Of a stretch of DNA of 64,000 nt, positions 9,395-43,066 are shown piece by piece. Location of the stretch: NCBI RefSeq assembly GCF_026151205.1, contig NC_087082.1, forward strand, positions 20,112,494 to 20,176,493. Reading direction: 5' to 3'. Source of the stretch: Bolinopsis microptera (lineage: Eukaryota; Ctenophora; Tentaculata; Lobata; Bolinopsidae). The translations under genes were made by a program, and so were the position numbers. The notes beneath the pieces were generated by a model. It did no database searches. It saw only the letters and a program-made list of their open reading frames with translations, and was not told the DNA's origin. Numbering within the stretch: position 1 is the stretch's first letter; each line of letters begins with the position of its first letter.

Positions 9395-9925
9395 GCTTAG
9401 GAATTTAGGACTCCTGGCCTAGGAATTTAGGACTCCTGCCCAGAGGCGACCGGATGGGGAGTTTAATGCTGAACTCCACTAGCCTAGGAATTTAGGACTC
9501 CTGCCCAGAGGCGACCGGATGGGGAGTTTAATGCTGAACTCCACTAGCCTAGGAATTTAGGACTCCTGCCCAGTGTTACCATGGTAACTCCTGCCCAGTG
9601 TTACCATGGTAACTCCTGCCCAGATGCGACCGGATGGGGAGTTTAATGCTGAACTCCACTAGCCTAGGAATTTAGGACTCCTGCCCAGTGTTACCATGGT
9701 AACTCCTGCCCAGTGTTACCATGGTAACTCCTGCCCAGTGTTACCATGGTAACTCCTGCCCAGAGTTACCATGGTAACTCCTGCCCAGAGGGGACCACTA
9801 GCCTAGGAATTTAGGACTCCTGCCCAGTGTTACCATGGTAACTCCTGCCCAGTGTTACCATGGTAACTCCTGCCCAGTGTTACCATGGTAACTCCTGCCC
9901 AGAGGTGACCGGATGGGGTTTTGGT
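9395..9925. repeat. 65-bp array, right block, mixed with a 25-bp X-box-like repeat
   Basis: The 65-bp unit continues for about three copies. It then alternates with a 25-bp unit whose core is GTTACCATGGTAAC, a perfect palindrome, present about ten times. The 25-bp unit borrows the CTCCTGCCCAG segment of the longer unit, so it arose inside this array. Confidence 0.85.
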
Positions 9926-9968
9926 TTTGAGGATAAAATGTGTCCAATCACAAGTTACTTCAGCAGGA

Positions 9969-10022
9969 TTATCAGATCCAATTTGCATGCTCTGATAAGC
10001 TCATACAAATTGGATCTGATAA
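9969..10022. repeat. 17-bp inverted repeat (hairpin)
   Basis: TTATCAGATCCAATTTG at 9969-9985 is followed, after 20 bases, by its exact reverse complement at 10006-10022. The surrounding 9926-10699 is AT-rich and has no supported exon. Confidence 0.8.
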
Positions 10023-10699
10023 CCTTACTTTCCTAGTTCATGTTCCTGTCATTAATAAATAAATTTAAAAGTTATTTAAATTAGTTAATTAATTATGAAT
10101 TAACCTATATTATGTTACACACCGCCGCAACAAAGTGTCCTCCAACTTTACCTTAGTTTACTGTTGTCATTGCTTAGTATCTGAAGCAGTGGAAACAGTG
10201 ACACTGATAAATCTACTTGAGTGCTCCATACATCATAGCATGATAAAATTAGAAGTATTCTTCTTAAATAAATATGATTACTCGCATTATATTGTGGACG
10301 ATGATATAATAACTTCAGAAGTGTACATTTGTCGTTATTTATAAGCCACCGCTAAATATTCTAATACCACACAAAAATGACGTCATATTCTATCGATCAA
10401 TCAGCTCTAAGCTTTCACGTTGTGTAATAATGGTGTTGTCTATGAGTCTATGAGTCCATTAAAAGTAAAGTGCCTCAAGTATTGTAAAGTTGTAAATGCT
10501 ATTCAGGATTATGTTCGAAATGTGTATAATAATTAAAGTTGCTGTCCGTTGTAATGTCGTTCTGAATTTTAGATTTAGTTACATACTGTGTCGTGTTTTT
10601 AAAACTTGTCCCAACATTGGGAATACCTCAACTAGGGTCGATATAATATAAACTTACCATGACAATACTACCATATAAGGTAATATCAACACACCCCAG

Positions 10700-13600
10700 T
10701 TTTTCCCGACGTGGGTGGCTCCTAACGTGATGACGTTTGCTGGCTACATATGTCTACTAATTGACTACTGTCTTCTAGCTCACTACGATTGGACCTTTAC
10801 TGCTGAGAACGAGTCTAGTCAGGTAATATTTGTGTGAACATGTTACCATGGCAACACTGGTGTGAACATGTTACCATGGCAACACTGGTGTGAACATGTT
10901 ACCATGGCAACACTGGTGTGAACATGTTACCATGGCAACACTGGTGTGAACATGTTACCATGGCAACACTGGTGTGAACATGTTACCATGGCAACACTGG
11001 TGTGAACATGTTACCATGGCAACACTGGTGTGAACATGTTACCATGGCAACACTGGTGTGAACATGTTACCATGACAACACTGGTGTGAACATGTTACCA
11101 TGGCAACACTGGTGTGGACATGTTACCATGGCAACACTGGTGTGGACATGTTACCATGGCAACACTGGTGTGGACATGTTACCATGGCAACACTGGTGTG
11201 AACATGTTACCATGGCAACACTGGTGTGAACATGTTACCATGGCAACACTGGTGTGGACATGTTACCATGGCAACACTGGTGTGGACATGTTACCATGGC
11301 AACACTGGTGTGAACATGTTACCATGGCAACACTGGTGTGAACATGTTACCATGGCAACACTGGTGTGAACATGTTACCATGGCAACACTGGTGTGAACA
11401 TGTTACCATGACAACACTGGTGTGAACATGTTACCATGGCAACACTGGTGTGAACATGTTACCATGGCAACACTGGTGTGAACATGTTACCATGGCAACA
11501 CTGGTGTGAACATGTTACCATGACAACACTGGTGTGAACATGTTACCATGGCAACACTGGTGTGAACATGTTACCATGACAACACTGGTGTGAACATGTT
11601 ACCATGGCAACACTGGTGTGAACATGTTACCATGGCAACACTGGTGTGAACATGTTACCATGGCAACACTGGTGTGGACATGTTACCATGGCAACACTGG
11701 TGTGAACATGTTACCATGGCAACACTGGTGTGAACATGTTACCATGGCAACACTGGTGTGAACATGTTACCATGACAACACTGGTGTGAACATGTTACCA
11801 TGGCAACACTGGTGTGAACATGTTACCATGGCAACACTGGTGTGAACATGTTACCATAGCAACACTGGTGTGAACATGTTACCATAGCAACACTGGTGTG
11901 AACATGTTACCATGGCAACACTGGTGTGAACATGTTACCATGACAACACTGGTGTGAACATGTTACCATGACAACACTGGTGTGAACATGTTACCATGGC
12001 AACACTGGTGTGAACATGTTACCATGGCAACACTGGTGTGAACATGTTACCATGGCAACACTGGTGTGAACATGTTACCATGGCAACACTGGTGTGGACA
12101 TGTTACCATGGCAACACTGGTGTGAACATGTTACCATGGCAACACTGGTGTGAACATGTTACCATGACAACACTGGTGTGAACATGTTACCATGGCAACA
12201 CTGGTGTGAACATGTTACCATGGCAACACTGGTGTGAACATGTTACCATGGCAACACTGGTGTGAACATGTTACCATGGCAACACTGGTGTGAACATGTT
12301 ACCATGGCAACACTGGTGTGGACATGTTACCATGGCAACACTGGTGTGAACATGTTACCATGGCAACACTGGTGTGAACATGTTACCATGGCAACACTGG
12401 TGTGAACATGTTACCATGACAGCACTGGTGTGAACATGTTACCATAGCAACACTGGTGTGAACATGTTACCATGGCAACACTGGTGTGGACATGTTACCA
12501 TGGCAACACTGGTGTGAACATGTTACCATGGCAACACTGGTGTGAACATGTTACCATGGCAACACTGGTGTGAACATGTTACCATGGCAACACTGGTGTG
12601 AACATGTTACCATGGCAACACTGGTGTGAACATGTTACCATGGCAACACTGGTGTGAACATGTTACCATGGCAACACTGGTGTGAACATGTTACCATGGC
12701 AACACTGGTGTGAACATGTTACCATGGCAACACTGGTGTGAACATGTTACCATGGCAACACTGGTGTGAACATGTTACCATGGCAACACTGGTGTGAACA
12801 TGTTACCATGGCAACACTGGTGTGAACATGTTACCATGACAACACTGGTGTGAACATGTTACCATGGCAACACTGGTGTGAACATGTTACCATGGCAACA
12901 CTGGTGTGAACATGTTACCATGGCAACACTGGTGTGAACATGTTACCATGGCAACACTGGTGTGAACATGTTACCATGGCAACACTGGTGTGAACATGTT
13001 ACCATGGCAACACTGGTGTGAACATGTTACCATGGCAACACTGGTGTGAACATGTTACCATGGCAACACTGGTGTGAACATGTTACCATGGCAACACTGG
13101 TGTGAACATGTTACCATGGCAACACTGGTGTGAACATGTTACCATGGCAACACTGGTGTGAACATGTTGCCATGGCAACACTGGACACTTTAGTTGTTAG
13201 ATAAAAGTACCTTTAAGTTCGCATGGGTGTAATATATCTACTATACTATGTGTACTATGGGTGTAATATATTCTCATATTCACATGTTCACAGTGGTATT
13301 CATAGTGTATACTCCTAAGTTATAAAAGAAGTACTCTTTACACATACTAGACTGTAACATGTTACTCACTGTAACATGTGACACACTGTGACATATGACA
13401 AACTGTCACATGTGACACACTGTAACATGTGACATAATTACAGGCTAATATACCTCGGTGGGTTTGGTTTCTAGTTGCTGTGTTACACGCTGCTTCTCAC
13501 CATCTGGACGGTATGGACGGAAAACAAGCTCGGCGTACAGGTATGTTACTTTGTTTAGGTATGTTACTTTTTTAAATTTTGGTATGTAACAGGTTGTAGT

Positions 13601-16600
13601 TGTTTTAGTACGTTATTGTTTGCAATAAATATTTCAGGTTCTTATCTTACTTAGTTTAGAGTAGGAACTTGAGGATTGTTAGAAGTGGTTTTTCAGTGAA
13701 AAAACGAAAACTTTATGGAAAGGAAAAAACAGATTAATTTCAGACAACAAACTGACTGTAATAATATAATATACTGAACAATATCAAAGAATGTGATGGA
13801 GACCAAAACCAAATTATCAACAAACAATTATAAATCTAACAAACATCCTTTTTAAAAAACTATTCTATTCACTGAGAAACTCATCAAAACAGGACACCCC
13901 CGATTTAGAAATCTCTCTTAACTTCCCGCGCACAATCTCCATCTGTTTCTCTGTAAAGTAGTTCAAGTAATCTCCCACCACTCCCTTCCTGATAAAATCA
14001 AACCCCTCGTTGCACAGGAACTTGTTCCACTGGAAGTTAGCTGTAGGGTCTTTCTTCATTTTGTTAAATGTGGTGAGTTCTGCTATTTCCGCTGCTCGCC
14101 CTTTTGAGATGGGGATGTCGAGGAAGGAAGCTATTTTTTGGACGGTTCCGGTTTCGTCTGCTTTCATGTCTTTGTATCTGTAATAAGGTTGTTTTAATCC
14201 CAATTTTAGACTTTAAATTCTATTTTGATCGTTTGCATCACAGTTTTATCAGACGTTTCACTAGATTAAGAGATTAGTTTCTAATAAATGAAGTGTTCTA
14301 CGCTCCACCCAAACCACATGCTTAATTGGTTTTATTACAGAACCCAAGTACACGTTAGTTAGCCCCCCCCCCCCCCCCCCCTGCTACTAATGCACTTAGT
14401 TAGACAACTCCGTTACAATTACAACTCCAAACTACAATTTGACTTGAAACTTAGAGCCATCAGTGAGGTATTACTTTAAAAACAGAGCGGGTAAGTTACC
14501 ATGGCAATACTACCATAATGATATTACACAACTTCACCTCAAAAAGAGAGTGTTAGGATCGCTCTGTGCCTTGTTCCAGCCCTGTTTCACGTGATCAAAC
14601 CAGCTACCGAACAGTATGTCTCCCTCCAGATAGAGATTTAGATATTTCTCCCAACTCATATCTAGGGTGGATTAGTGTTAGTGTTACCATGACGACACTA
14701 CCTTATTTGGTAGTGTTACCATGACGACACTACATTATTTGGTAGTGTTACCATGACGACACTACATTATTTGGTAGTGTTACCATGACGACACTACCTT
14801 ATTTGGTAGTGTTACCATGACAACACTACCTTATTTGGTAGTGATACCATGACGACACTACCTTATTTGGTAGTGTTACCATGACAACACTACCTTATTT
14901 GGTAGTGTTACCATGACGACACTACCTTATTTGGTAGTGTTACCATGACGACACTACCTTATTTGGTAGTGTTACCATGACGACACTACCTTATTTGGTA
15001 GTGTTACCATGACGACACTACCTTATTTGGTAGTGTTACCATGACGACACTACATTATTTGGTAGTGTTACCATGACGACACTACCTTATTTGGTAGTGT
15101 TACCATGACAACACTACCTTATTTGGTAGTGATACCATGACGACACTACCTTATTTGGTAGTGTTACCATGACGACACTACCTTATTTGGTAGTGTTACC
15201 ATGACGACACTACCTTATTTGGTAGTGTTACCATGACAACACTACCTTATTTGGTAGTGTTACCATGACGACACTACCTTATTTGGTAGTGTTACCATGA
15301 CGACACTACCTTATTTGGTAGTGTTACCATGACAACACTACCTTATTTGGTAGTGATACGATGACGACACTACCTTATTTGGTAGTGTTACCATGACAAC
15401 ACTACCTTATTTGGTAGTGTTACCATGACGACACTACCTTATTTGGTAGTGTTACCATGACGACACTACCTTATTTGGTAGTGTTACCATGACGACACTA
15501 CCTTATTTGGTAGTGTTACCATGACGACACTACATTATTTGGTAGTGTTACCATGACGACACTACCTTATTTGGTAGTGTTACCATGACGACACTACCTT
15601 ATTTGGTAGTGTTACCATGACGACACTACCTTATTTGGTAGTGTTACCATGACGACACTACCTTATTTGGTAGTGTTACCATGACGACACTACCTTATTT
15701 GGTAGTGTTACCATGACGACACTACCTTATTTGGTAGTGTTACCATGACGACACTACCTTATTTGGTAGTGTTACCATGACGACACTACCTAATTTGGTA
15801 GTGTTACCATGACGACACTACCTTATTTGGTAGTGTTACCATGACGACACTACCTAATTTGGTAGTGTTACCATGACGACACTACCTTATTTGGTAGTGT
15901 TACCATGACGACACTACCTTATTTGGTAGTGTTACCATGACGACACTACCTTATTTGGTAGTGTTACCATGACGACACTACCTTATTTGGTAGTGTTACC
16001 ATGACGACACTACCTTATTTGGTAGTGTTACCATGACGACACTACCTTATTTGGTAGTGTTAACATGACGACACTACCTTATTTGGTAGTGTTACCATGA
16101 CGACACTACCTTATTTGGTAGTGTTACCATGACGACACTACCTTATTTGGTAGTGTTACCATGACGACACTACCTTATTTGGTAGTGTTACCATGACGAC
16201 ACTACCTTATTTGGTAGTGTTACCATGACAACACTACCTTATTTGGTAGTGTTACCATGACACCACAGTATTGCTATTGTTTCGATGGAAACTTCAATAA
16301 ATGAGGAGTAACTTAGTTACAATTTCACTTTTTCTAAGTTTAAGCTAATATTTAGTTGACGAATAGTCTTATTTACAATAATATAAATGTTCAAAAGCAG
16401 CCACACGGACATGACACAAGTTGTAAGGTACTGTGATGCACATTGCACGCATAACATGTCATCAGTCTAGAGTTCGGGCTGAAAAATGTAAAGAATTCGT
16501 TATCATGTCAGAAACCTTCAGCTCCAAATGTGCAATATCCTTTGACGATCTCAAAGTTGGCTACACAGTTATCAAATGGGTTCCGTGCTATGTAGATCGT

Positions 16601-19600
16601 CTTGGATTGTTTTGGTAGCTTATTACAACGCAGACTGAAATAATTAGATGATAATTGTTAATTCACTAATTGGGATGCCAATTAACTACCTTGAATAGAA
16701 ATATGAAATGTATGTCAGATTTGTGGCGGCATTTGCTAAACGTTTAGATATCTATAGCCTATTTGAGAAGTCTGAGATTGAGATAAAATAAAATGATGTG
16801 TACGTGTGTATGTATACTTTATGAATCATGTATTGATAATGTACAAATAATGTACAAATAATGTATAAATAATGTACTTAATGAATTATATCGCACCACA
16901 ACTTACTGAGATTTGAATATTCTTGGAGACTCCAACTGTTCAAGTTGTGTGTTGGTGTGTCCCTCAAACCATTTCACTAGGTTTATTATTATCTCCTCCT
17001 GGGGTACTCCCTTTATGTGTTTTATCATGTTCTGCGCCCAGTTCGACCCTGTTTGATATTTGACAATTGTGTCACACTGTGACACACTGTGACACACTGT
17101 GACAAGTGACACACTGTGACACACTGTGACAAGTGACACACTGTGACACACTGTGACAAGTGACACACTGTCACACACTGTGACACGTGACAATTGACAC
17201 ACTGTGACAAGTGACACACTGTGACACACTGTGACAATTGACACACTGTGACACGTGACAAGTGACACACTGTGACACTGTGAAGTCTGTGGTTTACATG
17301 TTCAAGTTACGAACCTGGGCTAGTTTGTAACAATATGTGATGTTTCTGTTACAGCGGAGTTTACAAAAAACTCATTAGAATTTAGTTTGTAGAGATTCAT
17401 GTGTTTGGCTTACACCATTGAGATATTTAATATGTCATACGAATATTAAAACAGTAACAAAAGGACTATAATGAATGAGGAAAGTAATATTCTTAGAACA
17501 CGTGTCAGAACAATCACCCCACGTGTCAGAACAAACCCTCCACGTGTCAGAACAAACACCCCACGTGTCAGAACAAACACCCCACGTGTCAGAACAAACA
17601 CCCCACGTGTCAGAACAAACACCCCACGTGTCAGAACAAACACCCCACGTGTCAGAACAAACCCCCCACGTGTCAGAACAAACCCCCCACGTGTCAGAAC
17701 AAACCCCCCACGTGTCAGAACAATCACCCCACGTGTCAGAACAAACACGTGATTCACAAACTACCTGATCTGGGAACACAGCAGATAAAGAGGTCGTCTG
17801 GTCTAGCCACGAACTGGTCACATGACTTTATTCTATCCACCCATCTCCCTCCGTGATAGTTGTATTGAGGGTAGATCATTCCGTCTTCTCCTGCCAGATA
17901 CCAACATTTTTATATCTTATTTTATAAGGTTTAACATTAATCTGCGTAGCGTGGTCATACCACAATTTAAAGGGAGAGATTCTCGGCCAATAATAGGTAC
18001 AACAGAAAGGTGTGTGAAGTATGTACTTACTGACAGTGTGACAGAAAGGTGTGTGAAGTATGTACTTACCTACAGTGTGACAGAAAGGTGTGTGAAGTAT
18101 GTACTTACCGACAGTGTGACAGAAAGGTATGTGAAGTATGTACTTACCGACAGTGTGACAGAAAGGTGTGTGAAGTATGTACTTACCTACAGTGTGACAG
18201 AAAGGTATGTGAAGTATGTACTTACCGACAGTGTGACAGAAAGGTATGTGAAGTATGTACTTACCTACAGTGTGACAGAAAGGTATGTGAAGTATGTACT
18301 TACCGACAGTGTGACAGAAAGGTATGTGAAGTATGTACTTACTGACAGTGTGACAGAAAGGTATGTGAAGTATGTACTTACCTACAGTGTGACAGAAAGG
18401 TATGTGAAGTATGTACTTACCGACAGTGTGACAGAAAGGTATGTGAAGTATGTACTTACCTACAGTGTGACAGAAAGGTATGTGAAGTATGTACTTACCG
18501 ACAGTGTGACAGAAAGGTATGTGAAGTATGTACTTACTGACAGTGTGACAGAAAGGTATGTGAAGTATGTACTTACCGACAGTGTGACAGAAAGGTATGT
18601 GAAGTATGTACTTACTGACAGTGTGACAGAAAGGTATGTGAAATATGTACTTACCGACAGTGTGACAGAAAGGTATGAGAAGTATGTACTTACCGACAGT
18701 GTGACAGAAAGGTATGTGAAGTATGTACTTACCGACAGTGTGACAGAAAGGTGTGTGAAGTATGTACTTACCTACAGTGTGACAGAAAGGTATGTGAAGT
18801 ATGTACTTACCGACAGTGTGACAGAAAGGTATTTTATCAGTTCTCTCCACAAAGTCAGGATCCTCCTTGTTTTGAGAGAGTAAAGCTTGGTGAGATTTGA
18901 GTACTTTGTTCATGTCCATTTTCTTGGGAGGAGAATCTGCCCTTCTCTTCATGCTAGTGAGTAAAATAGCAAGTTCGGGAGGGCTAATAGCTAATAGATA
19001 ATAACGTGATGAAATCAGATTGCACATGAACTAATATAATAATATGAGAAGAATGTGTTTATTATAATATAGATGTTACAACCAAACTCCATAATACTTT
19101 ATGTTATGTTTGGGACAACTGTGTGGTCTGTTAGTGATAATGTCTTCGTAAACCTCAAGCCATGATAAGAGGTATCATAAGAGTCACTGCAACATTCATC
19201 TACCTAGTAAGAATTTCAACATTCTGCAGAACAAGCAGCCTGAATAAGAACAAGAACAAACAGTCAGCTAAAATACCAATCAAAAGAACAGCTTGACCAC
19301 AACACTCCTCTTCTGTAGCTCTTTGTTCTGTGTAATGGGGTGTATTGTGTATTGTGCACTAGTAGTGTATTGTCACTAGTTGTGTGTATCACACAATACT
19401 AGTTGTGTGTATACACACAATACACCTGATACAACCCTCTTCCTGTATTTAGGTTATTTTGGTAAATACTGGGGTAGAATGTGTGTAGTGTTAGTCAATG
19501 TGAAGGTAAAGCTGCAGAGATGCTGCTGCAGTAGTGTGGTATATAGTGTGTATACAATATGTACTGTAGCTGTGTACTGTAGCTGTGTACTGAACATTGT

Positions 19601-22447
19601 GCAGTGTATGTAGCATTGCAGAGGGGAACAGTGAGATGCTACTGAAGGATCCTGATAATTGAGAGCCTCTAAGTACAATATGTACTGCTGTGTACTCCTC
19701 TAAGTGGGCCTCCCAGTGAGATAATGGAATCAGGTTCATAAACACAAATTATAGTGAACAAGTACGAGTTTATAATTGTAATTTATTCATTATTATTTAT
19801 TGTTGATTACCAAGTCAAGTATACAGTTCATTATACTTTACACTTTTACATGCTGTTCTGAGTGGTGTAAAACTATTATACATTATCCTGCCTACCTAGG
19901 TCGATCCAGATGAAATCTGGAACGAGTTTCGTGACAGCGCTTCTCTCCATTTATCTCTATCACTCATGAGCCAACGTAACTTATCAGGATCCAATCTAGT
20001 ATCTTCTAGTAGGACGTCCGGAAAGGTCTTATGTGGTCGTCCTCAATACCGATGGCCATAGGAGTGTTGCCAGAAAAGGAGTTGCTGAGCAGGTTGGTCT
20101 TGTAGCCGGTACACATGTCCTGCAAAACGAAGTCTTCGTGTTTTGATGGTATCAGTCACCGGTGGAATCTTTCCGTATAGAACGGAGTTTGGTGTGTGAG
20201 ATTTCCACGAGACACCATTATCAAGAGATATTTATTATATTGGTTTTACATTGTGTCAAGTTCTTACGCATAAAATAAGATGTATTTTAATAAACCTTAC
20301 ATTTTTCAGGATGTATTTTAGGTCCTTACATACATATTTTGCAAACTTGAGTGATATATGTTATTAGTAGTATAACTATGGTAACTAACTTGAGTGATCC
20401 GTTTTAAACTATCTGGACATCGCCGCAATTAATTATTAAGTTTCGTTACAATGGATTGAGTAGCTAACTCAACAGTCTATAATAGACATGCAGACCAATG
20501 AGACAGACCAATGAGGTGTATAGTAGACGATGTGTCTATCATCTGAAGATGGTGTGTCAGTTTACACAATGTGTCACATACTGTCTAGTAGTGTCTACTT
20601 AATGTTCGGTTCACAAATTGTTGGCATCTTCAGTATGGTACCTTCAGATAGCAATGGAATCCAGCTAAGAATTCTCTAATCTGCTCTCTAGGTTTTGTGA
20701 TAAAAGCAAAATTATAAGTTTAAGTGGGAACAGGGATTTCAATAAGGTTAAAATATAATCCAATAAAGTATAACCACTGAAACAGCCCCCGCCCCCTTCT
20801 CTTTTTTCAATATATTCAAGAATTAACACACAAACTTTAGGATAATTAAAACAACAAACATTAAGATTAATATTAAAACAACAAACCTCAGGACAATTAT
20901 TGAAACTACTCTGGGAAAACAAGATTAAAGTTGGTTCTGACACTACTTAGCCTGTAATATAAAGCTTCACTATTTCAATTATATAATATAATTTCAGGAT
21001 CTGGAAGTCCTCTGGGCGAGCTTATGGACCACGGTATTGATAGTAACTGTATGTGGATGCTTCCAATCTCTCTTATGAGTAAGTATTGCACTTTACACCG
21101 CACTTTACACCACACTTTATACCGCACTTTACACCGCACTCTATACCGCACGTTATACCACACTTTATACCGCACTTTACACCGCACTCTATACCGCACG
21201 TTATACCACACTTTATACCGCACTCTACACCGCACTTTATACCGCACTCTTTACACCGCACTCTTTACACCGCACTTTACACCGCACTCTATACCGCACG
21301 TTATACCACACTTTATACCGCACTTTACACCGCACTCTATACCGCACGTTATACCGTACTCTATACCGCACTTTATACCTTTACTCTTATCTATCATTAA
21401 GTTATTTAGCACATTCTTGTACGACGGACAGCGCTTATCATTGTTATTTAGAGCATTCCATGTGGCTAATAGCGGTGGTTAAGAAGAATGCGCTGATCCC
21501 AATATCCAACGTATTAAGTTTCATTAATACAAATTGCGATATGTTCTGGCACCATGCCAACATAAGTGGTACGTGTTTAAGAGAGTAAACTAGTAGGATA
21601 TAATATGTTTTATAATGTGTGATGCAAGTACAGCAGTTGCAGAGTATATTGCAAATATAAGAGGAAGTGATTCATGATAAGTGCAGTTGTGCTGCTTGTA
21701 TATGCTACGAGAGTGGCTATAAGTTATATCTTAGAAAGTCAAATATTTAAAATAAAAAATATCAGTTTATCCTGAAAGTTATAGATTTTAATTAATCATT
21801 ACTACATGAGTAGCAGTAGAAGATAAGAACATTGTCTCGACAAGTTCAGTAATCAAAAGTCGCAGAGCAGGTGTAACTAAGAAAAAGGAAAAGAAACCCA
21901 GACCACTTTTACCCCATCATATAGCGTGTTATCGACGACCACCACTAGGATCATACGTGTCACCAGTAACAACTGACTCATCAGATTGTGATGGATAGAC
22001 AATTAAAAATGTTGGCCCCCCATTTTCAAATTTGTTATTATAACTGGGTTGATTTCTGAGTGATAACGCTGCTTATCTTTTAACAGCAATACATTTTCCG
22101 GGTTACATGACCGATAAGAAGTTTGTTAAGTAGATACATATAACGGCTCATTGTAGCAGTATATTTAAGATTTTCATCATCATACTACATGAGAATTTCA
22201 GATTTCTCGTCATCCATTACCTTGCTAAATTAATTACGACAGAGAATTATAATCATTACCCCGGAATAACGACACTATTACAGGTGTGTTTGGGAGTAAC
22301 CCTGCTACGGGAGGTATCACGATGATGTTTGCTCCTCTCCTCATGTTAGCACTTACCTTCAACTTCTGGGTTAACCACTGGGAGAAGTATAATACTGGAG
22401 TTCTATACCTTCCCTGGATGTTCGACATCGCTCAAGTGGTACGTTCC

Positions 22448-30084: not shown

Positions 30085-30225
30085 GGACTATAATGCAAAG
30101 AAACTGCTGCTAACTGCTGCTGTCGCGCGCGCGCCATTTGCAGCAGTCATGCAGCAGCAGTTTCTTTCTACGGCGGTCGCGCGCTACTGCAAGTTTCTTT
30201 ACACTATAGTCTTCCTGTGTCGGAT
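30085..30225. repeat. imperfect inverted repeat, interspersed family
   Basis: GACTATAATGCAAAGAAAC near 30088 and its near-complement GTTTCTTTACACTATAGTC near 30195 flank GCAGCAG and CGCGCG segments. Related pieces (GCGGTCGCGCGCTACTGC and the CAGAGCCCTCTCGCTTGCAG box) recur near 30560, 53340 and 56480. Confidence 0.6.
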
Positions 30226-31429: not shown

Positions 31430-31497
31430 TCGTACTGACGATACAGGGGGAGCCGCGCACTTCGTGCGCGGCGGGTCATACAACGTATGACAACTAT
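31430..31497. repeat. three-hairpin interspersed repeat (copy 1)
   Basis: About 100 bp is shared with 58590-58690. It contains consecutive hairpins: GTATCGT/ACGATAC, CCGCGCAC/GTGCGCGG and GTCATAC/GTATGAC. Confidence 0.75.
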
Positions 31498-31972
31498 GTG
31501 ACACTATTTATAACGTAAGCAAGATTTGCAACTATTACACCAAGCAATATTATACCAAGCATAGCAGACGAACACATCCACATTCGTTACGCTTTACACT
31601 CAAGTCACAGCAAACTAAAACGGTAAATTATAAATGAGTGTACAACTAAAGGCCGGTACACGCGCAGTGCCAAACCGCACGTGCGCACTCAGATAGGACT
31701 AGAGGCGCCAAGGGCCAGCTAGTAAAATGTATTCTACTACATCATACATTCAATCGATTTTTAGATCTTCTGTTGCGGCGCTTTGCTGTCTTAAAAGTTT
31801 GTTCATTTGAAAGCTTTTTCACTATAAATATAAAGAGTGTCTTTATACATCCAATTATAAGCCACCCATATTTTAAACTGTACTTTCATCTGGCATTTAT
31901 ATTTGGTTTTTGATCAATTATCATATTTCAATGTACAAATAAGATACTATAATTCATTGAGATAATAATTCT

Positions 31973-32215
31973 GTGAATCGGAAGGAGTTCCCGGAAAAGG
32001 ATGATGTTGAGAAAAGGAACAGGCTATACCGTTTCGCTGCTTACAGAACATTCTTTCGGATACTGGAGCTGAACGGACTGGGTAAAGGACGGCGCTTCAG
32101 ACTACCACAGTGTGTGGTGAGAGTTATCCGCAGAATGTACCCCAGCAAGTCAGGCAAATATGTCGGATTTAAATCACTAAACGAACAAGTTTCGGAAAAG
32201 CTAAACATATATTAA
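31973..32215 (+). CDS. P2X7 C-terminal-domain-like ORF, probably an exon or element-borne domain
   Basis: The frame reads RLYRFAAYRTFFRILELNGL, then RLPQCVVRVIRRMYPSKSGK, then YVGFK, and stops at 32215. The order and spacing match the zinc-binding C-terminal (ballast) domain of P2X7-like proteins. That domain is widespread as a free-standing repetitive sequence in invertebrates. There is no ATG at the start; the first in-frame codon is GTG, so an upstream exon is likely. No channel region is nearby. The enclosing inverted repeats suggest a mobile element rather than a host receptor. Confidence 0.55.
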   Translation: MNRKEFPEKDDVEKRNRLYRFAAYRTFFRILELNGLGKGRRFRLPQCVVRVIRRMYPSKSGKYVGFKSLNEQVSEKLNIY

Positions 32216-32249
32216 GTGGGTCGGTCAACATATCTTCTATTTCATATGT

Positions 32250-32310
32250 ATTGTGCTCTGCCAATTGCAACACTTGATTTGATTGTGCTCTGCCGATTGC
32301 AACACTTGAT
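32250..32310. repeat. short interspersed box TGTGCTCTGCCAATTGCAAC
   Basis: The box occurs twice here in tandem, again near 52616 and, altered, near 60035. It lies close to mobile-element-like ORFs in the first two places and may be an element end. Confidence 0.6.
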
Positions 32311-32999
32311 TTTATATTGTTCGTCGCACATTTCATATGAAAATACATTCCTTTATTCTTGTATAAAGAAATATGCCGATTTTTAATTGTGTCCATATCG
32401 GGTTTCAAACAAGTCAAAACAAAATAGCAGTTTGTGGTTTAGTTAGCGGATGCTACTTATCTTAGCTATTTATAAATAGAAATACCTACTACAACTACAA
32501 GAAAGCCTTTCTGAGTTACATTTAACTATTAAAGAGAATTATTCGTAACTTAGACTAATTCAGTGCAACCAAAGATACCGCTCTCGCAAACGCCAAAGGT
32601 AACACGACGTAAGTAAAACAGAACAGGACAAAATGTTGACACGAGCGAAGGGTGTGCGCGCACGTTGGTCTTCACACATAATTGACGTCACAGCCCAAAA
32701 TTGCTATCAGCCAATAGGAGCGCGGCGTGATATTGCACGAATTATCGATTTCACAGTCCGGCGTATTTTTTGATTCTACACACTTTCACAGGACTTAAAC
32801 GCGAATATTTGAAAGTAAATTCTAAGGTCCCCTCATCCTTTAATGCACGTATTGGACACCAAATTGACTTCATTAAAGAGGACAACCTGAGCCTGACGAC
32901 TACATTCCCCATGACCTGCCAACTAGAAACTCTAGGGAATAAAGTACGAACAGTTATAAGAGACCCTTTTTGGACATACTTATTAAAAATCAGATTCAC

Positions 33000-33960
33000 G
33001 TACTAAATGGACGAACACTACGTGACTTGTTAATGTTTGGCGATGTATACAAAAAAGTGGAGCCAGCCCTGTCATGTTGACTACTTCATCATATCTCCAA
33101 ACTGCAATAGATATATTTGCCTTATGTCAGTCCAATCTTTCACATGATCACGTGACCGCGCACTTACGCAAAATAGCTGATAAATGCCTGAAAAAAAAAC
33201 GAAGCACTCCTCTGTCAATAATAATAATATGTAATAACTAGTTTACCCGTGTGTTATCCGTGCGTTATTAAATGTGTACGGTGCATAAACTTAAAGTATC
33301 GTTAAATTACCGAATCACAAGCACCCATAAGTACTGGTAAACTGGTAAGACCTTTCTAAACACGCCTTGTCCTTAATCAAGATTCAAGCAAGAGACAATA
33401 TTATCGTTTGAGTGGGAGCATCATGGATAATAATTGATTGATTGACAATGCCAACCTTGCAGAACATAATATTCCTAACCTTTTACAGCTTTTAGTTTTA
33501 CTGTGTCCAACATTCAGTTACATAATTGCTCTCTTACAACTTTACAAGAAAATTACCTAGTTGCGATGCCATACACCTTAATAAATTCCTGTTGCCCAAG
33601 CAAAGATTCTCGGCTTCCCCCTTTAATCACATAATCCCTTATAAAACAATGAGTGAACAATAAGCGCTCGCGCTACAAGGAAATGGAATAAAAATAGAAC
33701 AGCTATTCGGTAAATCTCGTAAGCAATTAGGCTGTCCCATTCCATACTTCTACAGCTAATGGCAATGCTATTGTCACTGGTTCACTTAATTGAACAGTTC
33801 GTTTGCTTTTAGTTTATCAGAGAGAAATCCAAATAGCACTTATAGGTCAAAATGTCTATTAGCACCCATACTCATAGAGGTCTGAGGACGGTTTTTTGTA
33901 TCTGTCATTAAATGTTTTATATTATATAATTAATGAAAGGCCGGGGTCACAGGGAGGAGG
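33000..33960. other. spacer
   Basis: AT-rich; no exon, RNA gene or clear repeat supported. Confidence 0.5.
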
Positions 33961-33969
33961 ATAATAGTT

Positions 33970-35340
33970 GACCATTGTTAATGATCTGACCCGGCGCGCG
34001 CTACTTCGAAGAAATTTAGAAGAGTAACATTCTATAAGTATATTCGTCAAGGATAATAGTAGTAGTATTTTTGCCTTTTTTTTGTGTTTTTGATGGTCAG
34101 TTTTTATTATCGCATCAAAAAAAATCCCGTCATACAAACAGGCACTTAGCCAGGGGGGCTAGGAGTAGGGGGCTGCATAAATCCAAATTTATGCACGTTC
34201 GCGTTCCAACACCGTTACCATGGTTACCATTTAACTAGCTTCCCATTTCTCATCTAATTTGCACGTGGACTGTCGTACATACAAAAAGAATCTTTCGAAT
34301 TATAATATAGGAGTAGAAAGCTTGTATGTTGTAGGTTTAAAACCTACCAGGACGCGCGCCGAGTTGGACTCGTCGACGGTCCTAATAATTGGAACAAATA
34401 TTTTAAGAGTATCACCCGTTAATAAAAAGCCCGTGGTTGGTGGTAACAGAGATGAAGCTAGTAGGTGTTTATTGTATGTTTACAACCTACCAGGACGCGC
34501 GCCGAGTTGGACTCGTCGACGGTCCTAATAATTGGAACAGATATTTTACGAGTATCACCCGTTAAGGTTTTTATAGCATCAAAAAATATCCGTCATAATC
34601 GAGTATACAGTTGACGGATGTTACTCGTCTAAATTTCTTCGAAGTAGCGCGCGCCGCTTTCTTCTCGAGATGGCACTTATATTACTGGGCCGCGCTCAGC
34701 CTGTCATTCCGCCGAATCTCTATTATGTTTATAAACATAATAGCCTGAGGTCCCCAGGTAAGATGGCACGTGCCATGCTACGAAGTACAAAGTAGCGCGC
34801 GCCGGGCCAGATCATTAACAATGGTCAAGTATACAGCCCATTAAAATGTAGCTTGCACTGAACACAACGTACCTAATTATATTACCACAAAACCGATCAA
34901 AATGATGTTAAAAGTAAAACAATCATTGCACGTGCAAATAGATTGCACGTGCAAATAGATTGCACGTGCAATCTATTTGCACGTGAGCTGTCGTACATGA
35001 CAGTGTACAAAGATAATTCTCTGAATATTATAAGTAAGACTAGAAAACCCGTGGTCACAGGGTGGAACCTAATACTAATAGTATTCTTTGGAAGTCAGTT
35101 TTAATCGTGTCAAAAAGTATTCATCCCCACCGAAGATACGGCCAAACAAAATGTTACTCGTACTAAACACAGCGTAATATCAACAAAACCGATTAAAATG
35201 ACGTTAAAACAATCATTGCACGTGGGTGTAACAATCCTCGTTACTATGGTTACTACGCAAGTTCATATTTTTCGTTTGATTTGCACGTGGGCGGTCGTAC
35301 AGACGACAAAGATAATTCTCTGAATTATAAGTAAGATTTT
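33970..35340. repeat. fold-back region of nested direct and inverted repeats
   Basis: The arm at about 33972-34040 (TTGTTAATGATCTGACCCGG, then CTACTTCGAAGAAATTTAGA) recurs inverted in two pieces near 34617-34660 and 34793-34830. Within it, an 89-bp block containing GGACGCGCGCCGAGTTGGAC is directly repeated about 142 bp apart. A block with TTTGCACGTG and AAAGATAATTCTCTGAAT appears near 34250, 34975 and 35280. At 34948-34986 lies a palindrome centred on TGCACGTGCA. It looks like a foldback-type element or a stack of insertions. Confidence 0.7.
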
Positions 35341-35344
35341 ATTG

Positions 35345-36160
35345 TTTTTTAAAATCAGGACATTATTTTTGAAACACCCTGTATTGCACGGTAGCATATA
35401 TTGTAATGCGCAATAGTCGATAAAGACACCGTGGTTGTTATAAAAAGGAGATGATGAAGCAAGTATTCAGGAACATAGGCATGACACAAAGAAGAATGGT
35501 CGGTGGGGATTGGGACCCACTTAAATCACCTTAACACAGTGCCCCTCAGTAATCCATCCTGTCACTCAAATAATTTGTTATATAGTAGTGTTGAAAGTAT
35601 TAAAACAGACAAAATAAAACACCGATATATTAACTTAAATTTCTGTCATAACACAGACAACCTTTGGATGAATTGTCACAAAAAATCTAAGAAATTAGGA
35701 TTCAGATCAGAAGAATATCCTGGCAATATGATTTTTTAATTAGATTTTTTTACTACGTACACGAAATTTCATGCATTGTTTTTCTTTCATAATATTACAT
35801 ATATTCATGAGCAGCAATCAGGAATAATCATCGAGCAGGCATCGGTCATTATAGATGTCCATTTTCATTATCAAAAATATTAAAAATCGAGTGATTTCAA
35901 TCAACGATTTTGGCATCGTGAACATATTAATTAAGCATCTTTAAGTAGCTTTTCCAGAGTTCTGATGTAATCAGATATTATGTTCTGACTGTTACCGGCC
36001 AGAATGGGGTGGATAACTGATAAGGGCAAGATACTGATAACGTAATAATATGTACACAATCTCTAATACTCCTATATAACTACGTTTACATTTTATAATG
36101 CACGTGTAACGCAGTTTTATTTAGCGTTTTGCTATTTTCTGATTAATACCGGGTCCACGG
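35345..36160. other. spacer
   Basis: No supported gene. The open frame at 35503-35739 has no recognisable content. Confidence 0.5.
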
Positions 36161-36372
36161 TAACAGTACCACGGCCACAGCTAGCTGTTACCACGGTAAC
36201 AGCTAGCTGTTACCACGGCCACAGCTAGCTGTTACCACGGCCACAGCTAGCTGTTACCACGGCCACAGCTAGCTGTTACCACGGCCACAGCTAGCTGTTA
36301 CCACGGCCACAGTACCACGGCCACAGCTAGCTGTTACCACGGCCACAGTACCACGGCCACAGCTAGCTGTAC
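36160..36372. repeat. 22-bp minisatellite with X-box-like and AGCTAGCT palindromic cores
   Basis: About nine copies of GTTACCACGGCCACAGCTAG(CT), some shortened. GTTACCACGGCCAC differs at one position from the RFX half-site consensus. Confidence 0.85.
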
Positions 36373-37863
36373 CTAGGCCCAAGGTTATTGGACCACAGTA
36401 GAATAGCGTAAACATGGTTTTGAAACCACGCTAAACTTTCATTTTCGCTCCAAATATAAAATAAAATCATACTGTAATTCACCGTAAAATATTGTTAAAC
36501 TTTAACAATTTGATTTGTGACGTTTCACAGCGTATTCCTCGAATCTAGATAAAATCAAAGTTACATTAACTGCCACAAAAGTTAAATTTACAAAACGCAG
36601 TCCCTTACAAAAACTCATACTTCTCAACTTCAATATGTTTCGTTTAGTATTTAGGTAACAAATAACTGAAAAATTAGAAAAACCTCATCAGATTGTGTTT
36701 CAAGTATCACCAGCAAAAAATCCTGTCGTAAACGCACTAAAATCTCTGTTATTTGGGAGTGATCCAATAAAACAAATTGCTACTAATTCTTACATCTTTC
36801 AATTGAGTAGAAATTACGTCTTGAATGTGGAAAATGTATTTGAACGAGCTGTACAATTTGGAACGCCACTTTTACAAGCTTCAACTTCTGCTTTTATTTT
36901 ATGAAATCAACTATTATTATAGTATATATGTATATATCTCATTCTCAACAACTAATAAACCTAAACACTGTCAAGTCTAACAATGGCAGTAATTCTAAAA
37001 CAATCTGTAGCCTCATCAAACTAGTCAATGTTTGACAATTGTTGTCATGGCCTTATAGTTATATGTATGTACTAGAACCTTACTGCATTCAGGGTAAAAG
37101 GGATTCGTCATGATTCAAGAGGCGTTAGTTATATTTTTTATTAAGATCATTATTCAAAGAACAAAGATTAGATTTTACTCGAATAATATAGACTCACACT
37201 CTAATAATCTTAATTGACTTAATAAACATAATTACTTTAATAACCTTACACCCAGACTATAAATCCAACATTCCATAATCCATACCAATCTTCAGATGAC
37301 AAGAGAATTAACCCACATACATAATTATATCAAAAACATAATTATCAAAACAAACTTCCTTCAGCTGCATAGTTCGTATAACATCAAGTCACCTTCGTTT
37401 TAAAAATCAATAAATTACAAAAAACTTTTTATACTCTCGAAGAAATCGAATAGTTCGGGACTCTGAGAGCCCTTGCTGAATCAAGTCTGTTAATATCCTG
37501 TGAACTTGTCACGTGCGAACTTGTCACGTGTGAACTTGTCACGTGCAAACTTGTCACGTGTGAACTTGTCACGTGCTAGAGAGAGATCTTGTCGGAGAGA
37601 ACGAGGCTAACTGTTACTTAGTACACCAATCTGAAATAAATTAGGGTTAGAATATTTAAAATATGTTTGAGAATTTGCTCTGGGGAACGTGGTCATGTTC
37701 ATGTTAGTATTATGAATTTATTAAATTCATTTAAGAAATACGTCAATAAGATTCGACAGAAAAATTCAGAGCTGAACAGCGAACAAATATTTTTTTAAAA
37801 ATATTAATTACTTTTTATAAATTTTTGAGTATTTTATAAGCCGTAGTACATACATATTGCATT
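36373..37863. repeat. AT-rich spacer with a 15-bp CACGTG repeat
   Basis: Six copies of GAACTTGTCACGTGT (or variant) lie at about 37497-37577. The open frame at 36695-36904 lacks an ATG start and is unrecognised. No other exon is supported. Confidence 0.6.
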
Positions 37864-37963
37864 NNNNNNNNNNNNNNNNNNNNNNNNNNNNNNNNNNNNN
37901 NNNNNNNNNNNNNNNNNNNNNNNNNNNNNNNNNNNNNNNNNNNNNNNNNNNNNNNNNNNNNNN
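37864..37963. other. assembly gap (100 N)
   Basis: Exactly 100 N, the usual placeholder for a gap of unknown size. Anything linking the two sides, including the phosphotransferase 3' exons, depends on the join being right. Confidence 0.99.
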
Positions 37964-40806
37964 CCTGCCTTGGAAAGAAAATTATTTTTCCCCCTAAATA
38001 CTATGATCAACTTATCTCCTCTGCTAACTTTTAAAGACCGTCCACACAGTAACCTTCCCTGATAGACGTCTGTATAACGAATATTAACTGCTCCTTTATA
38101 ATATTAACGTATTAAGGTGTCTGGAATTTACACTCCGTAATTTGTGAGGAATGTGAACCTTTAATTTCTTGTATGTGGATTTACTTCTCCCTCCTCATCT
38201 ACAATCTACATCCCCCCTCGTACCTGTCACTCTTATCTAGAAACATGTTGCAGTATCCTGTACACTTTCATATGCTTTTATCGTTGGATTATTGTCAAAA
38301 GTACAAGGAGGGGTGAGAATCGGTTGAAAAAAGAAGTGTAACTTATTTTGATCTTTAACCAATCAATTACAGTAAGAATTAAGGGTCTTTCAGTAAAATG
38401 TTGAGTTACAGTACGAATGTTATGATTCCTAGTAGTTGTACAGTGTACACTGATCACTAATAGGAAAATGAAACCTTTTACTATAGCTATACTTTAGTTG
38501 TAAAGGAAGACTTATAATAGTTACCGCTAGTGTTACTATATATCTACTACTACCGCTGTCACAAACAGACGCGTTTCTCATCAAGTTAAACAAGTTTTTA
38601 ACTCTAAGGTGTTGAATAAGGGCGTGGCTGAGACTAAATATCGTACCCTGCCAACATTGACAATGTTTCATAGATTTTATATTTATGTTTAGATAAAGAT
38701 TAAAGTAGTTTGTGTAAGCTTTATCTGACGATCTTAATGCTGTACGGATCTTTGAAGTTAAAGAATTGACATGGTAGTTAATAATTCAGTGTTATACAAG
38801 TGCGAAACCGCCAGATATTAACTAATAACTGCATTCTTAACAGGATTTATTAAATTACTTTCAAGGTTTTACATTTATTATTTAACCATACCATGTCTAT
38901 CATAATCTCACACTATCATCATACAATCCACGTGCTTTACAAGACATATCATATCAGTTAATAAACTGGTAAACCTTACAACTGTGACATTTAGCGTGTC
39001 ACTTGTTACTCTTAGTAACTGAACTGGTGACAGTTTGTAATTTTCTTAACCAAGGTGCAGGGTTGGTGGAGAAGTTAAATAGTTCTTTAATTTTCTGTTT
39101 AAACATTAATTAAAACAAATACAGACACCGCACATACACGGTGTCTTACTCTAGTAGCAGGGAGTAAGACACGGTCTATGTATTATTATGATATTTATTA
39201 TGATATTCGAATATTTTAATAATATTATATTTATCATGATATTCGAATATTTTAATAATATTATATTTACATGGTATTCTAATATTTTAATAATATTATA
39301 TTTATCATGATATATTCGAATATTTTAATAATAATATTATATTTACATGGTATTCTAAAATTCGAACACAAACCTTACTAGTTTTACATAAACTTTGGTA
39401 TCTCACTTGATTACAATCTAATTCCGATTGCAATTTCAAAATAAAAACCTTTTTGAAAGTTTCATATTATTAAGTTTAAAATTTTCACGTTATTCAGTTT
39501 AAAAGATGAAAATTATTTAGTTTAAAACGTTTCAAATTGTTCAGGATATCAGATGGATATTTTGTGGTAGATGACGAACTTTCTTCCGCTGCAAGCTCCA
39601 TGCAACAGTTAGTTACCATGGTTACACTACTAGTTACCATAGTAACATGCAACAGTTTGTTTCTCACATAATCTTACGCATATTTTCCACATTTTTCTTT
39701 AATTACGAAAAGACAAATATGGGTATCATCCTCCAATACTTTTTATTCGAAACTGATTAGAAAAAGGGTCAGCCCAAATATTTGTATCAGATAAATTCTG
39801 AACAGAAATAACATGATCCACCACGATAACCAATTAATTAAAATATTACCAGATATTATCTAAAAATAGTTGTTAACAGAGATTGTTACACACAGCTGTT
39901 CCGTCTCATTTTATTCCTAATTTAACTTTAATTAGTTTAATTACTAGATCTAATTGGAACCAATCATTCCGCACACAAATGAAGCTGATTATTCCACAAT
40001 TGTACAAAAATCAAGTGTAAATTTGTCCGAACACTGCAATGCAGATCTCCCAAAATACCGTGCTAACTTTCCGATTCCTGTGTCCGGCCTGGGATTTTCC
40101 GTATCAAGTTTCATAATAAACGCTCTCGATCTAATTTAGGGGACAATACTGTCGGTAATGTTGTACCAATGCTGTCGGTAATTGTAAGGGATTTAATACC
40201 GTACAGCTGGATATAGCGCCACTTTTAGAGTTGATGAAAGGTTGCAAGACACTACCTAGAAATTACCATCGTTGTGGATTGTGGATCAAGTCACGCGCAA
40301 TTTAGGGTCACGTGCACTTTATGACTTAAGGCGGCTGCACTTTATAGTGTAGCTTTAACTTGTAAATGCACTGTTCGGGATAGCGATGTACGTGATAGCT
40401 GTGACAATCACTAACTGTAACTATAAGGACTAAATACATTGTACGACTAAGACTAATGTACATTATACATTATATTATTAGATAAGAGTTACAGTGTGTA
40501 TATTGTATAAGTTCCACCTTATCTCCCTTATACAACTGTTACTTTGCAGGGGGAGGGACCATCCAACCATTCAGTATCATGTTGTACTATCCAACATTTA
40601 ACCGTTTACCAATTTAATTGACAGCTGTAACTAAGAAACATTCAACCCACGATTGTAAGTTTTCTCCACTCTGAGGTAGCCTGTGTTTTAGTACACCAGC
40701 AATAACAAGCATTACAAGTCCCACACATAATTAGCACACCCCACACTCTGAACTTCTGAAGAAGAAGCCCCGACACTATCTGATAACCACTCCCCGAACC
40801 CTCGTC
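37964..40806. other. AT-rich spacer with a 54-bp AT repeat
   Basis: At 39181-39360 there are three to four copies of an AT-rich unit holding TATTCGAATATTTTAATAAT. A well-formed acceptor (ACTTTGCAG) at about 40550 precedes a short open stretch that could be an alternative last exon of the phosphotransferase, but there is no similarity to support it. Confidence 0.5.
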
Positions 40807-41961
40807 TCTCATTGGCTCCCACCCTCCCCTCTTCGTCTTTCATTGGCTCCCACCCTCCCCTCCTCGTCTCTCATTGGCTCCCACCCTCCCCTCCTCGTCT
40901 CTCATTGGCTCCCACCCTCCCCTCCTCGTCTCTCATTGGCTCCCACCCTCCCCTCTTCGTCTTTCATTGGCTCCCACCCTCCCCTCCTCGTCTCTCATTG
41001 GCTCCCACCCTCCCCTCCTCGTCTCTCATTGGCTCCCACCCTCCCCTCCTCGTCTCTCATTGGCTCCCACCCTCCCCTCTTCGTCTTTCATTGGCTCCCA
41101 CCCTCCCCTCCTCGTCTCTCATTGGCTCCCACCCTCCCCTCCTCGTCTCTCATTGGCTCCCACCCTCCCCTCCTCGTCTCTCATTGGCTCCCACCCTCCC
41201 CTCCTCGTCTCTCATTGGCTCCCACCCTCCCCTCCTCGTCTCTCATTGGCTCCCACCCTCCCCTCCTCGTCTCTCATTGGCTCCCACCCTCCCCTCCTCG
41301 TCTCTCATTGGCTCCCACCCTCCCCTCCTCGTCTCTCATTGGCTCCCACCCTCCCCTCCTCGTCTCTCATTGGCTCCCACCCTCCCCTCTTCGTCTTTCA
41401 TTGGCTCCCACCCTCCCCTCCTCGTCTCTCATTGGCTCCCACCCTCCCCTCCTCGTCTCTCATTGGCTCCCACCCTCCCCTCCTCGTCTCTCATTGGCTC
41501 CCACCCTCCCCTCCTCGTCTCTCATTGGCTCCCACCCTCCCCTCCTCGTCTCTCATTGGCTCCCACCCTCCCCTCCTCGTCTCTCATTGGCTCCCACCCT
41601 CCCCTCCTCGTCTCTCATTGGCTCCCACCCTCCCCTCCTCGTCTCTCATTGGCTCCCACCCTCCCCTCCTCGTCTCTCATTGGCTCCCACCCTCCCCTCC
41701 TCGTCTCTCATTGGCTCCCACCCTCCCCTCCTCGTCTCTCATTGGCTCCCACCCTCCTCTCCTCGTCTCTCATTGGCTCCCACCCTCCCCTCCTCGTCTC
41801 TCATTGGCTCCCACCCTCCCCTCCTCGTCTCTCATTGGCTCCCACCCTCCCCTCCTCGTCTCTCATTGGCTCCCACCCTCCCCTCCTCGTCTCTCATTGG
41901 CTCCCACCCTCCCCTCCTCGTCTCTCATTGGCTCCCACCCTCCCCTCCTCGTCTCTCATTG
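40807..41961 (+). repeat. 31-bp pyrimidine-rich minisatellite, about 37 copies, ending at a splice acceptor
   Basis: Units contain CACCCTCCCCTCCTCGTCTC followed by TCATTGG, and lack AG dinucleotides. The array ends directly at the acceptor GGAGGACAG before 41970, so it supplies a polypyrimidine tract over 1.1 kb long. All three plus-strand frames are open (376-410 codons) because the unit lacks stops; none is a gene. Confidence 0.93.
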
Positions 41962-41969
41962 GAGGACAG

Positions 41970-42146
41970 CTCTACAAGCTGCACTCCTACTGGTCAATGT
42001 GTGAGATACTATCTTGTGATTGGTCAGCAGTGTGTGTCACGTGACACACGCTGTGTACCGTGTTGACAGGAGTGGTGTTTGGCAAGAGGGAAGAGGTCTA
42101 CTCCCACCTCCGCAAGCGTTTAAAGTCTAAATATAACACACTGTAA
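41970..42146 (+). CDS. candidate C-terminal exons of the phosphotransferase
   Basis: Exon 41970-42000 (LYKLHSYWSM plus one base) follows phase 0 from the 24140 donor. It resembles the conserved end of EPT1, where a Leu/His-containing segment follows the last membrane span. A 69-bp GT-AG intron precedes 42070-42146, which reads VVFGKREEVYSHLRKRLKSK then YNTL and stop, a basic tail typical of a membrane-protein C-terminus. The problem is the junction: T plus GA makes TGA. Either the protein ends there, TGA is read as selenocysteine (as in some SELENOI proteins, but at another position), or the splice model is wrong. The link across the N gap is also unproven. Confidence 0.4.
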
Positions 42147-42449
42147 TGTGATACCCAGAACGAGATACCCCATATCTGCACAATATCTGCTGTGTCACAT
42201 TCTCCCAGTGTAAAGTATAACAACAGGATGTAATGTTAGTAGATGTGAAATATTACTAATCACTATATTGTAGTGATGACTATTCATTAATCTGTAACAA
42301 TCTGTGTTAGGGCTATGATGCGTATCCTCTTACGTTAATACGTTAAATCAGAGAAATTTTCACTCAGATATTATCCGTTCCTTCCGGGTCGCGACCACGC
42401 CTATAACAGTCAAACATTCTTAAGTCACAACTGAAACGATTACCACTGT

Positions 42450-43066
42450 TAACGTTACCGTGGCAATGTTGACGTTGCCGTGGCAATGTCGACGTTACCG
42501 TGGTAATGTCGACGTTACCGTGGCAATGTCGACGTTACCGTGGCAATGTCGACGTTACCGTGGCAATGTTGACGTTACCGTGGCAATGTCGACGTTACCG
42601 TGGTAATGTCGACGTTACCGTGGCAATGTCGACGTTACCGTGGCAATGTCGACGTTACCGTGGCAATGTCGACGTTACCGTGGCAATGTCGACGTTACCG
42701 TGGCAATGTCGACGTTACCGTGGCAATGTTGACGTTACCGTGGCAATGTTGACGTTACCGTGGCAATGTTAACGTTACCGTGGTAATGTTGACGTTACCG
42801 TGGCAATGTTAACGTTACCGTGGCAATGTTGACGTTACCGTGGCAATGTTAACGTTACCGTGGTAATGTCGACGTTACCGTGGCAATGTTAACGTTACCG
42901 TGGCAATGTTAACGTTACCGTGGCAATGTTAACGTTACCGTGGCAATGTTAACGTTACCGTGGCAATGTTAACGTTACCGTGGCAATGTTAACGTTACCG
43001 TGGCAATGTTAACGTTACCGTGGCAATGTCGACGTTACCGTGGCAATGTTAACGTTACCGCGGCAA
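42450..43066. repeat. 20-bp minisatellite, about 31 copies, X-box-like core
   Basis: The unit is GTTACCGTGGCAATGTCGAC, with TCGAC alternating with TTGAC and TTAAC. The core differs at its last position from the RFX consensus. Toward the right end TTAAC units become fixed, showing local homogenisation. Confidence 0.92.

Follow-up and report, generated by a model that had tools for sequence, protein, structure and literature searches.

A palindrome-like core common to otherwise different minisatellites in the ctenophore Bolinopsis microptera, and its possible part in their origin

Why should tandem arrays that differ in unit length and in most of their sequence carry the same short core? This question is raised by a 64,000-nucleotide stretch of the Bolinopsis microptera genome, referred to here as the window (C11:20112494-20176493, forward strand), in which five minisatellites contain a palindrome-like sequence resembling the X-box, the site of RFX transcription factors. 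The original prediction was that this motif seeds tandem expansion, is retained in it, or acts as a sink for the factor. Our answer, to which we give an even chance of being right, is that the 14-bp palindrome-like GTTACYATGGTNAC repeatedly serves to nucleate new minisatellites.

The genome of B. microptera, 265 Mb in 13 chromosomes, has been compared with the chromosomes of Mnemiopsis and Hormiphora (PMC11797021). In the assembly used here (264.65 Mb), contigs C1-C13 are of chromosome size (15.2-26.2 Mb) and C14 measures 198 kb; the window lies 0.65-0.71 Mb from the end of C11 (20.83 Mb). Array counts were drawn from match lists, mainly for C1, and from ~290 kb of sampled DNA; in the genome pattern searches, lack of a match is not proof of absence.

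A common core in otherwise different arrays

All five arrays are present in the window with the cores claimed for them: a 25-bp array (9562-9902) with nine exact copies of GTTACCATGGTAAC, the rest of its unit being CTCCTGCCCAG, and, all on the plus strand, a 28-bp array of 84 units (10832-13184; core GTTACCATGGCAAC), a 32-bp array of 49.5 units (14679-16261; core GTTACCATGACGAC together with the CArG-like CCTTATTTGG), a 22-bp array (36167-36370; core GTTACCACGGCCAC, with GTTACCACGGTAAC in some units) and a 20-bp array of 31 units (42447-43066; core GTTACCGTGGCAAT). With ~195 array copies at no more than 3 mismatches from GTTRCCATGGYAAC, the predicted 'over 200' sites is roughly right. As judged by eye, three of the cores fit the X-box consensus RYYNYY-N(1-3)-RRNRAC and two miss it by one base, as had been stated. 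When up to 2 mismatches are allowed, the window contains 301 X-box-like matches, as compared to 1.7 on average after dinucleotide shuffling.

The excess extends to the whole genome. As a control we used the reversed pattern, which keeps the base composition and, for a palindromic form, the palindromicity. GTTACCATGGYRAC is found 1245 times in forward and 1140 times in reverse orientation, as compared to 1/1 for its reversed pattern, and GTTACCNTGGNNAC 3928/4510 times as compared to 26/31; tandem pairs of the form GTTACCATGG-N(1-30)-GTTACCATGG number 1394/1535, the control yielding 0/1. Both the shuffles of the window and the genome-wide reversed controls thus lie far below the observed counts, which rules out chance or composition as the cause and bears out the expectation that the core is commoner than composition predicts.

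How many different arrays stand behind these counts? Among the matches listed, the tandem pairs on C1 occupy 29 places and, after merging of near-identical units, represent 23 or more unit types, 16-40 bp long. Ten of the 23 lie within 1.9 Mb of the start of this 26.2-Mb chromosome (p=2e-6). While the query fixed the first ten bases only, positions 13-14 of the core read AC in 21 of the 23 types (p=3e-24), and the common part is therefore a 14-mer; position 12 is T in 14 types, A in five, G in three and C in one. No X-box array was detected in motif-blind samples of chromosome interiors (120 kb, 36 arrays), indicating that such arrays are regionally concentrated. Units that otherwise differ in sequence and length therefore have one core at many loci, above chance: the sharing is real and genome-wide and, on C1, concentrated near one end. 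A telomere-type repeat can be ruled out: there is no telomeric repeat at the contig ends that we read (C1, C2, C3, C5 and C11), and an X-box cluster lies near the start of C2 only. In the literature, we found the 14-mers in no relevant paper and RFX- or X-box-containing minisatellites in none either, and no paper on decoy arrays under the terms used.

The arrays of the window can be compared with paralogous copies, as sequence 82-98% identical to their flanks is present at C11:20.19-20.23 Mb and, partly inverted, at C11:20.087-20.098 Mb (84-88% identity). Array length is highly variable between these paralogous segments: the 28-mer has 84 units in the window and 26 in its paralogue (L084), the 32-mer 49.5 and 8.4 (L085), and the 20-mer 31 and 21 (L087), and the paralogue of the 22-bp array (L086) contains ~4 units of a 36-bp form. 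The largest reduction is that of the 25-mer array, with nine X-boxes in the window and a single one in the paralogue L088 (L088:821-857), which reads ACTCCTGCCCAG-TGTTACCATGGTA-ACTCCTGCCCAG, that is, one unit plus an extra copy of its non-core part. This one-unit state represents either the array's seed or the smallest form to which the array can collapse.

Solitary palindromes and their direct repeats

Prompted by the one-unit paralogue, we examined all X-box-like sites outside arrays for similar direct repeats. The sample was motif-blind DNA, comprising the window and 16 sampled stretches, and a site counted as bracketed when exact direct repeats of 11 bp or longer flanked it at a period below 70. 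Seven of the 28 solitary X-box-like sites are bracketed, as compared to 86 of 15461 control positions (0.56%; p=2e-10), 8 of 1310 positions near the X-box sites and none of 193 GC-matched other palindromes (p=2e-7); two of the seven share one bracket, and one, at 35240, lies in a dispersed repeat. E-box sites are bracketed little (4/75, p=0.06), as are sites resembling the cAMP response element (CRE; 1/58). The reverse test gives the same picture: when we inspected the middles of all brackets that had repeats of 11 bp or more and a period of 18-59 (33 events), the X-box was present in five as compared to 0.05 expected, a number reached in none of 4000 permutations; without the window, the count is two as compared to 0.03. 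The 6-mers most enriched in bracket middles are GGTTAC, ACTATG, ACCATA and GGTAAC.

The direct repeats immediately around the insert are exact over 9-14 bp or, at L089 and L090, near-exact over 28-29 bp. At 7042-7085 of the window a lone X-box palindrome, TGTTATCATGGTAACA, stands between two 14-bp copies of GTGTATAATATCAG; two X-boxes (39612 and 39633) are enclosed by two copies of CATGCAACAGTT at 39599-39657, and the X-box-like ATAACTATGGTAAC by two copies of AACTTGAGTGAT at 20344-20398. The bracket of GTAACTATGGTAAC at 6838-6874 is weak, consisting of two 9-bp copies of ATATATGAG. Outside the window, L079 contains TTACCATAACAA between two copies of CCAATAGCTGG. At L089 (C3:20614500-20614760), a two-copy module of CArG box and X-box is located in what appears by eye to be a C2H2 zinc-finger exon, and the 28-bp near-exact direct repeat that brackets it is of this apparent exon.

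Haber and Louis reportedly proposed, in 1998, that minisatellites originate by slippage from a repeat-spacer-repeat configuration. Our model resembles theirs in that the founder is a spacer between short direct repeats and the unit is repeat plus spacer; it differs in that the spacer is arbitrary there, whereas here the same palindrome recurs as the spacer. The proposed route begins with a single palindrome that has a short direct copy of local sequence (9-29 bp) on either side, a state that the bracket statistics show. The block of local sequence plus palindrome would then expand into an array, as suggested at one locus by the paralogue comparison, from which we infer the direction; arrays formed in this way would have one core, each with its own remainder and unit length. 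Fast length change, and the spread of some modules (the 32-bp combination of CArG box and X-box, and a 20-mer in a dispersed element), both of which are seen in the data, would follow. As for the trigger, the palindrome may insert and duplicate its target, or else it may be a place, perhaps when bound by protein, where DNA breaks or copying stalls. That X-box-type palindromes of ~10-35 bp insert with 9-29-bp target duplications and so can found minisatellites, as a micro-element or as templated filler of a break, seems to us unlikely.

Taken together, the solitary X-boxes bracketed far above the controls and the paralogue in a one-unit state support the part of the prediction that has the motif seed tandem expansion. 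The bracketed single copy would be the founder state that later expanded, which would explain the single core with its differing remainders and unit lengths. Several observations weigh against this. The bracketed events are few, with five independent ones in 279 kb of blind DNA, and many solitary X-boxes have no bracket. A repeat-spacer-repeat founder fits the 25-mer locus and the excess at solitary sites; it does not fit the edges of the 28-, 32- and 20-mer arrays, which lack the extra non-core copy that a simple bracket model predicts. Collapse of a former array could also account for the one-unit paralogue. The search for an empty site gave none, the stretch examined as a possible paralogue of the 39612 site not being homologous, and the order of events is therefore unproven. 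Finally, at several sites the core is common by descent.

Common descent, other factor sites and RFX

The extent of common descent can be judged from the units themselves. The 32-mer of the window is identical at 29 of 32 positions to a module at C4:4119168 and at 24-27 of 32 to others (shuffle maximum 21, n=2000); this 32-bp module, a CArG box plus the X-box palindrome, is present on many chromosomes, from single to multiple copies. The 20-mer GTTACCATGGTTACTAACTA is found at two C1 loci (L002 and L044) with flanks 92-93% identical over >2 kb and a second, 33-bp array; the family is part of a dispersed element that has arrays within it. The sites at 34214 and 35240 lie in another dispersed repeat, which carries E-boxes, and AGT adjoins the core in the 25-, 28- and 32-mers. 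All this favours a mostly common descent, by which the core would belong to old dispersed short repeats (CArG plus X-box and E-box plus CArG modules, internal arrays of mobile elements) and the arrays would be local amplifications of their copies. We consider this possible but doubtful, as the 23 C1 types, otherwise different in sequence, remain after merging of related units, and as short inserts such as that at L079 consist, between their perfect direct repeats, of the palindrome and nothing more. Furthermore, the flanks of the window arrays are not dispersed: as far as tested, they match the local C11 duplications only, and no dispersed element was found around them. In this the window arrays differ from mobile elements with internal minisatellites, which the 20-mer family with its second, 33-mer array does resemble. 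Calling all the units 'unrelated', as the prediction did, is not appropriate for the 32-mer with its dispersed relatives, nor for the three units that share AGT.

Is the X-box the only factor site to behave in this manner? Short factor sites mark DNA exchange in fission yeast, where M26/CRE, CCAAT and Oligo-C sites are recombination-hotspot motifs (PMC6827382, PMC11352267), and CRE was tested for this reason. Its tandem pairs, TGACGTCA, number 5979, as compared to 404 for the reversed ACTGCAGT (~15-fold). E-box pairs, GTCACGTG, are in ~12-fold excess (7712/6912 as compared to 447/819 reversed) and CArG pairs, CCATATAAGG, in >100-fold excess (276/253 as compared to 0/2). The non-palindromic ETS site shows no enrichment of tandem pairs (1/1 as compared to 1/0), which rules out that any strong transcription-factor site can be an array core. 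Palindromes in general are ruled out as the source of the brackets (0/193 in the bracket test), and also by the 1/1 matches to reversed GTTACCATGGYRAC, and by the low count of ACTGCAGT relative to TGACGTCA. When 6-mers were counted blindly across 81 array units, CACGTG came out as the most enriched, and GGTAAC too ranked near the top. We also asked whether the GTNAC pentamer underlies X-box, E-box and CRE alike: in array units it ranks first among 16 gapped palindromes (4.2x), but ACNGT, CANTG and TGNCA are raised too and we find it unconvincing.

These results raise a broader alternative, that sites of dimeric factors (X-box, E-box, CRE and CArG) are trouble spots of recombination or replication and the minisatellites their scars. 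The excess of E-box, CRE and CArG pairs over their reversed controls and the lack of it for the ETS site agree with such a general effect, and CRE is an array core here as it is a hotspot motif in fission yeast, although a minisatellite scar would be putative here. We hold it to be rather unlikely: strong direct-repeat bracketing is seen at the X-box only, some arrays of E-box, CRE and CArG sites repeat a single unit found at several loci, so that the counts overstate independent origins, and the recombination or chromatin side is putative.

Two observations concern the E-box and CArG sites themselves. A composite CACGTG-ATGC-CCATATAAGG, in which E-box and CArG box stand at fixed spacing, with a variable linker, is present at many loci on C1-C6, often in tandem (for example C1:1400261, C4:11878628 and C6:17359326), and looks like a dispersed module of regulatory type. 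One motif-blind 8-kb sample, L076 (C2:500001-508000), is a single tandem array of 43-bp units containing GTTACCTTGTTACC.

Finally, are the arrays platforms for RFX binding, either because RFX occupancy drives expansion or because the sites are selected as a sink or a homotypic regulatory cluster? The genome encodes RFX DNA-binding domains (PF02257) at two loci, one of which aligns to human RFX1 in the RFX1-DNA structure (1dp7) over 61 residues (E=5e-25), and GTTACCATGGTAAC and two other window cores fit the consensus. The main array form, accounting for 11 of the 23 C1 unit types, is GTTACCATGGTTAC, which misses the consensus in its right half, and GTAACCATGGTTAC, both halves of which are poor, likewise exceeds its control (212 as compared to 0). 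Vertebrate RFX proteins like GTTGCCATGG, with a GTTGCC core, at least as well. This form is seldom tandem (270/238 pairs, none on C1 and, among the matches listed, most in a tract at C2 21.79-21.89 Mb), although the single mid-chromosome sites that we read are often GTTGCCATGGTAAC. The core is not consistently the best-conserved part of the unit: it varies more than the remainder in the 28-mer (1.28% as compared to 0.77%) and 32-mer arrays (1.75 and 0.68) and less in the 20-mer (1.4 and 13.4) and 22-mer arrays. The mixed picture gives no rule, and neither selection keeping binding sites nor the predicted retention of the core in expansion is supported as one.

The RFX reading of the array cores is thus partly supported: RFX genes exist, but the dominant array variant is a poor two-half site, GTTGCC is rare in arrays, and E-box, CRE and CArG sites recur as cores too. 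Since these are likewise sites of dimeric factors, RFX is a possible rather than a demonstrated binder, and arrays as RFX platforms seem to us quite improbable.

The setting of the arrays and what they mean

Scattered single copies of the core had also been predicted, and further ones exist (near-matches at 6847, 7057, 20372, 30025, 35240 and 39633), but the copy at 46480 is not single: it belongs to a 33-bp array of 2.3 copies (46473-46548, plus strand), which carries GTTACCATGACAAT and CACGTG. A neighbouring 21-bp array of 2.4 copies (46087-46138, minus strand) likewise combines an X-box-like core with CACGTG. A single relative of the 32-mer module, CTTACCATGACAATACTACCATATAAGG, is located at 10653-10684 (plus strand; 24/32 match), and a single GTTACCATGGCAATACTACCATAATG at 14495-14525 (plus strand) is retained in the paralogue L085. 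The dispersed repeat mentioned above has one copy at 34192-34321, with GTTACCATGGTTAC and TTTGCACGTG and with matches at L059, L060 and L016, and a second at 35048-35329, with GTTACTATGGTTAC. Small CACGTG arrays with otherwise different units are found at 17499-17748, 34925-34971, 37499-37576 and 46087-46548, and a 31-bp array of 37 units (40800-41962) has the promoter-type motifs of a CCAAT box (CTCATTGGCT) and a CACCC run.

The window itself is located in a local segmental duplication (C11:20.087-20.24 Mb), and its first 2 kb (1-2083) is found again at 62174-63998 with ~94% identity (81% in part). Between 65-bp repeat arrays (7105-9573) lies an open reading frame for an endonuclease domain (Exo_endo_phos; 7388-8713, minus strand). 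This stretch, resembling a long interspersed nuclear element, is absent from L088, which passes from the equivalent of position 7157 directly into the 9.5-kb array. At 46870-48110 the window is A-rich and strongly strand-asymmetric over more than 1 kb, and GA-rich repeats adjoin at 48966-49116.

The birth of minisatellites has long been a puzzle, and it was human DNA fingerprinting that gave rise to the idea of a shared core as a signal. The core of human minisatellites is G-rich and non-palindromic. Jeffreys-type minisatellites, described as different arrays with a common core (Nature 1985, as cited in PMC3880010), resemble the arrays reported here in having one short core in different arrays, many loci and fast length change, whereas here the core resembles the X-box and is palindromic, and bracketed copies can be seen singly. 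In another ctenophore, Mnemiopsis leidyi, an unplaced scaffold consists of the tandem repeat TACATGGAGTTACAATGT (PMC11797021), which also holds GTTAC and CATGG and is a possible relative of the X-box arrays. In B. microptera, many loci carry the core, which is clearly palindromic, and the one-unit state can be seen together with its direct repeats, which makes the birth step directly testable across individuals and sister species. This genome also has regulatory-looking sites in many tandem clusters, a point to bear in mind when X-box, E-box, CRE and CArG motifs are counted in this lineage.

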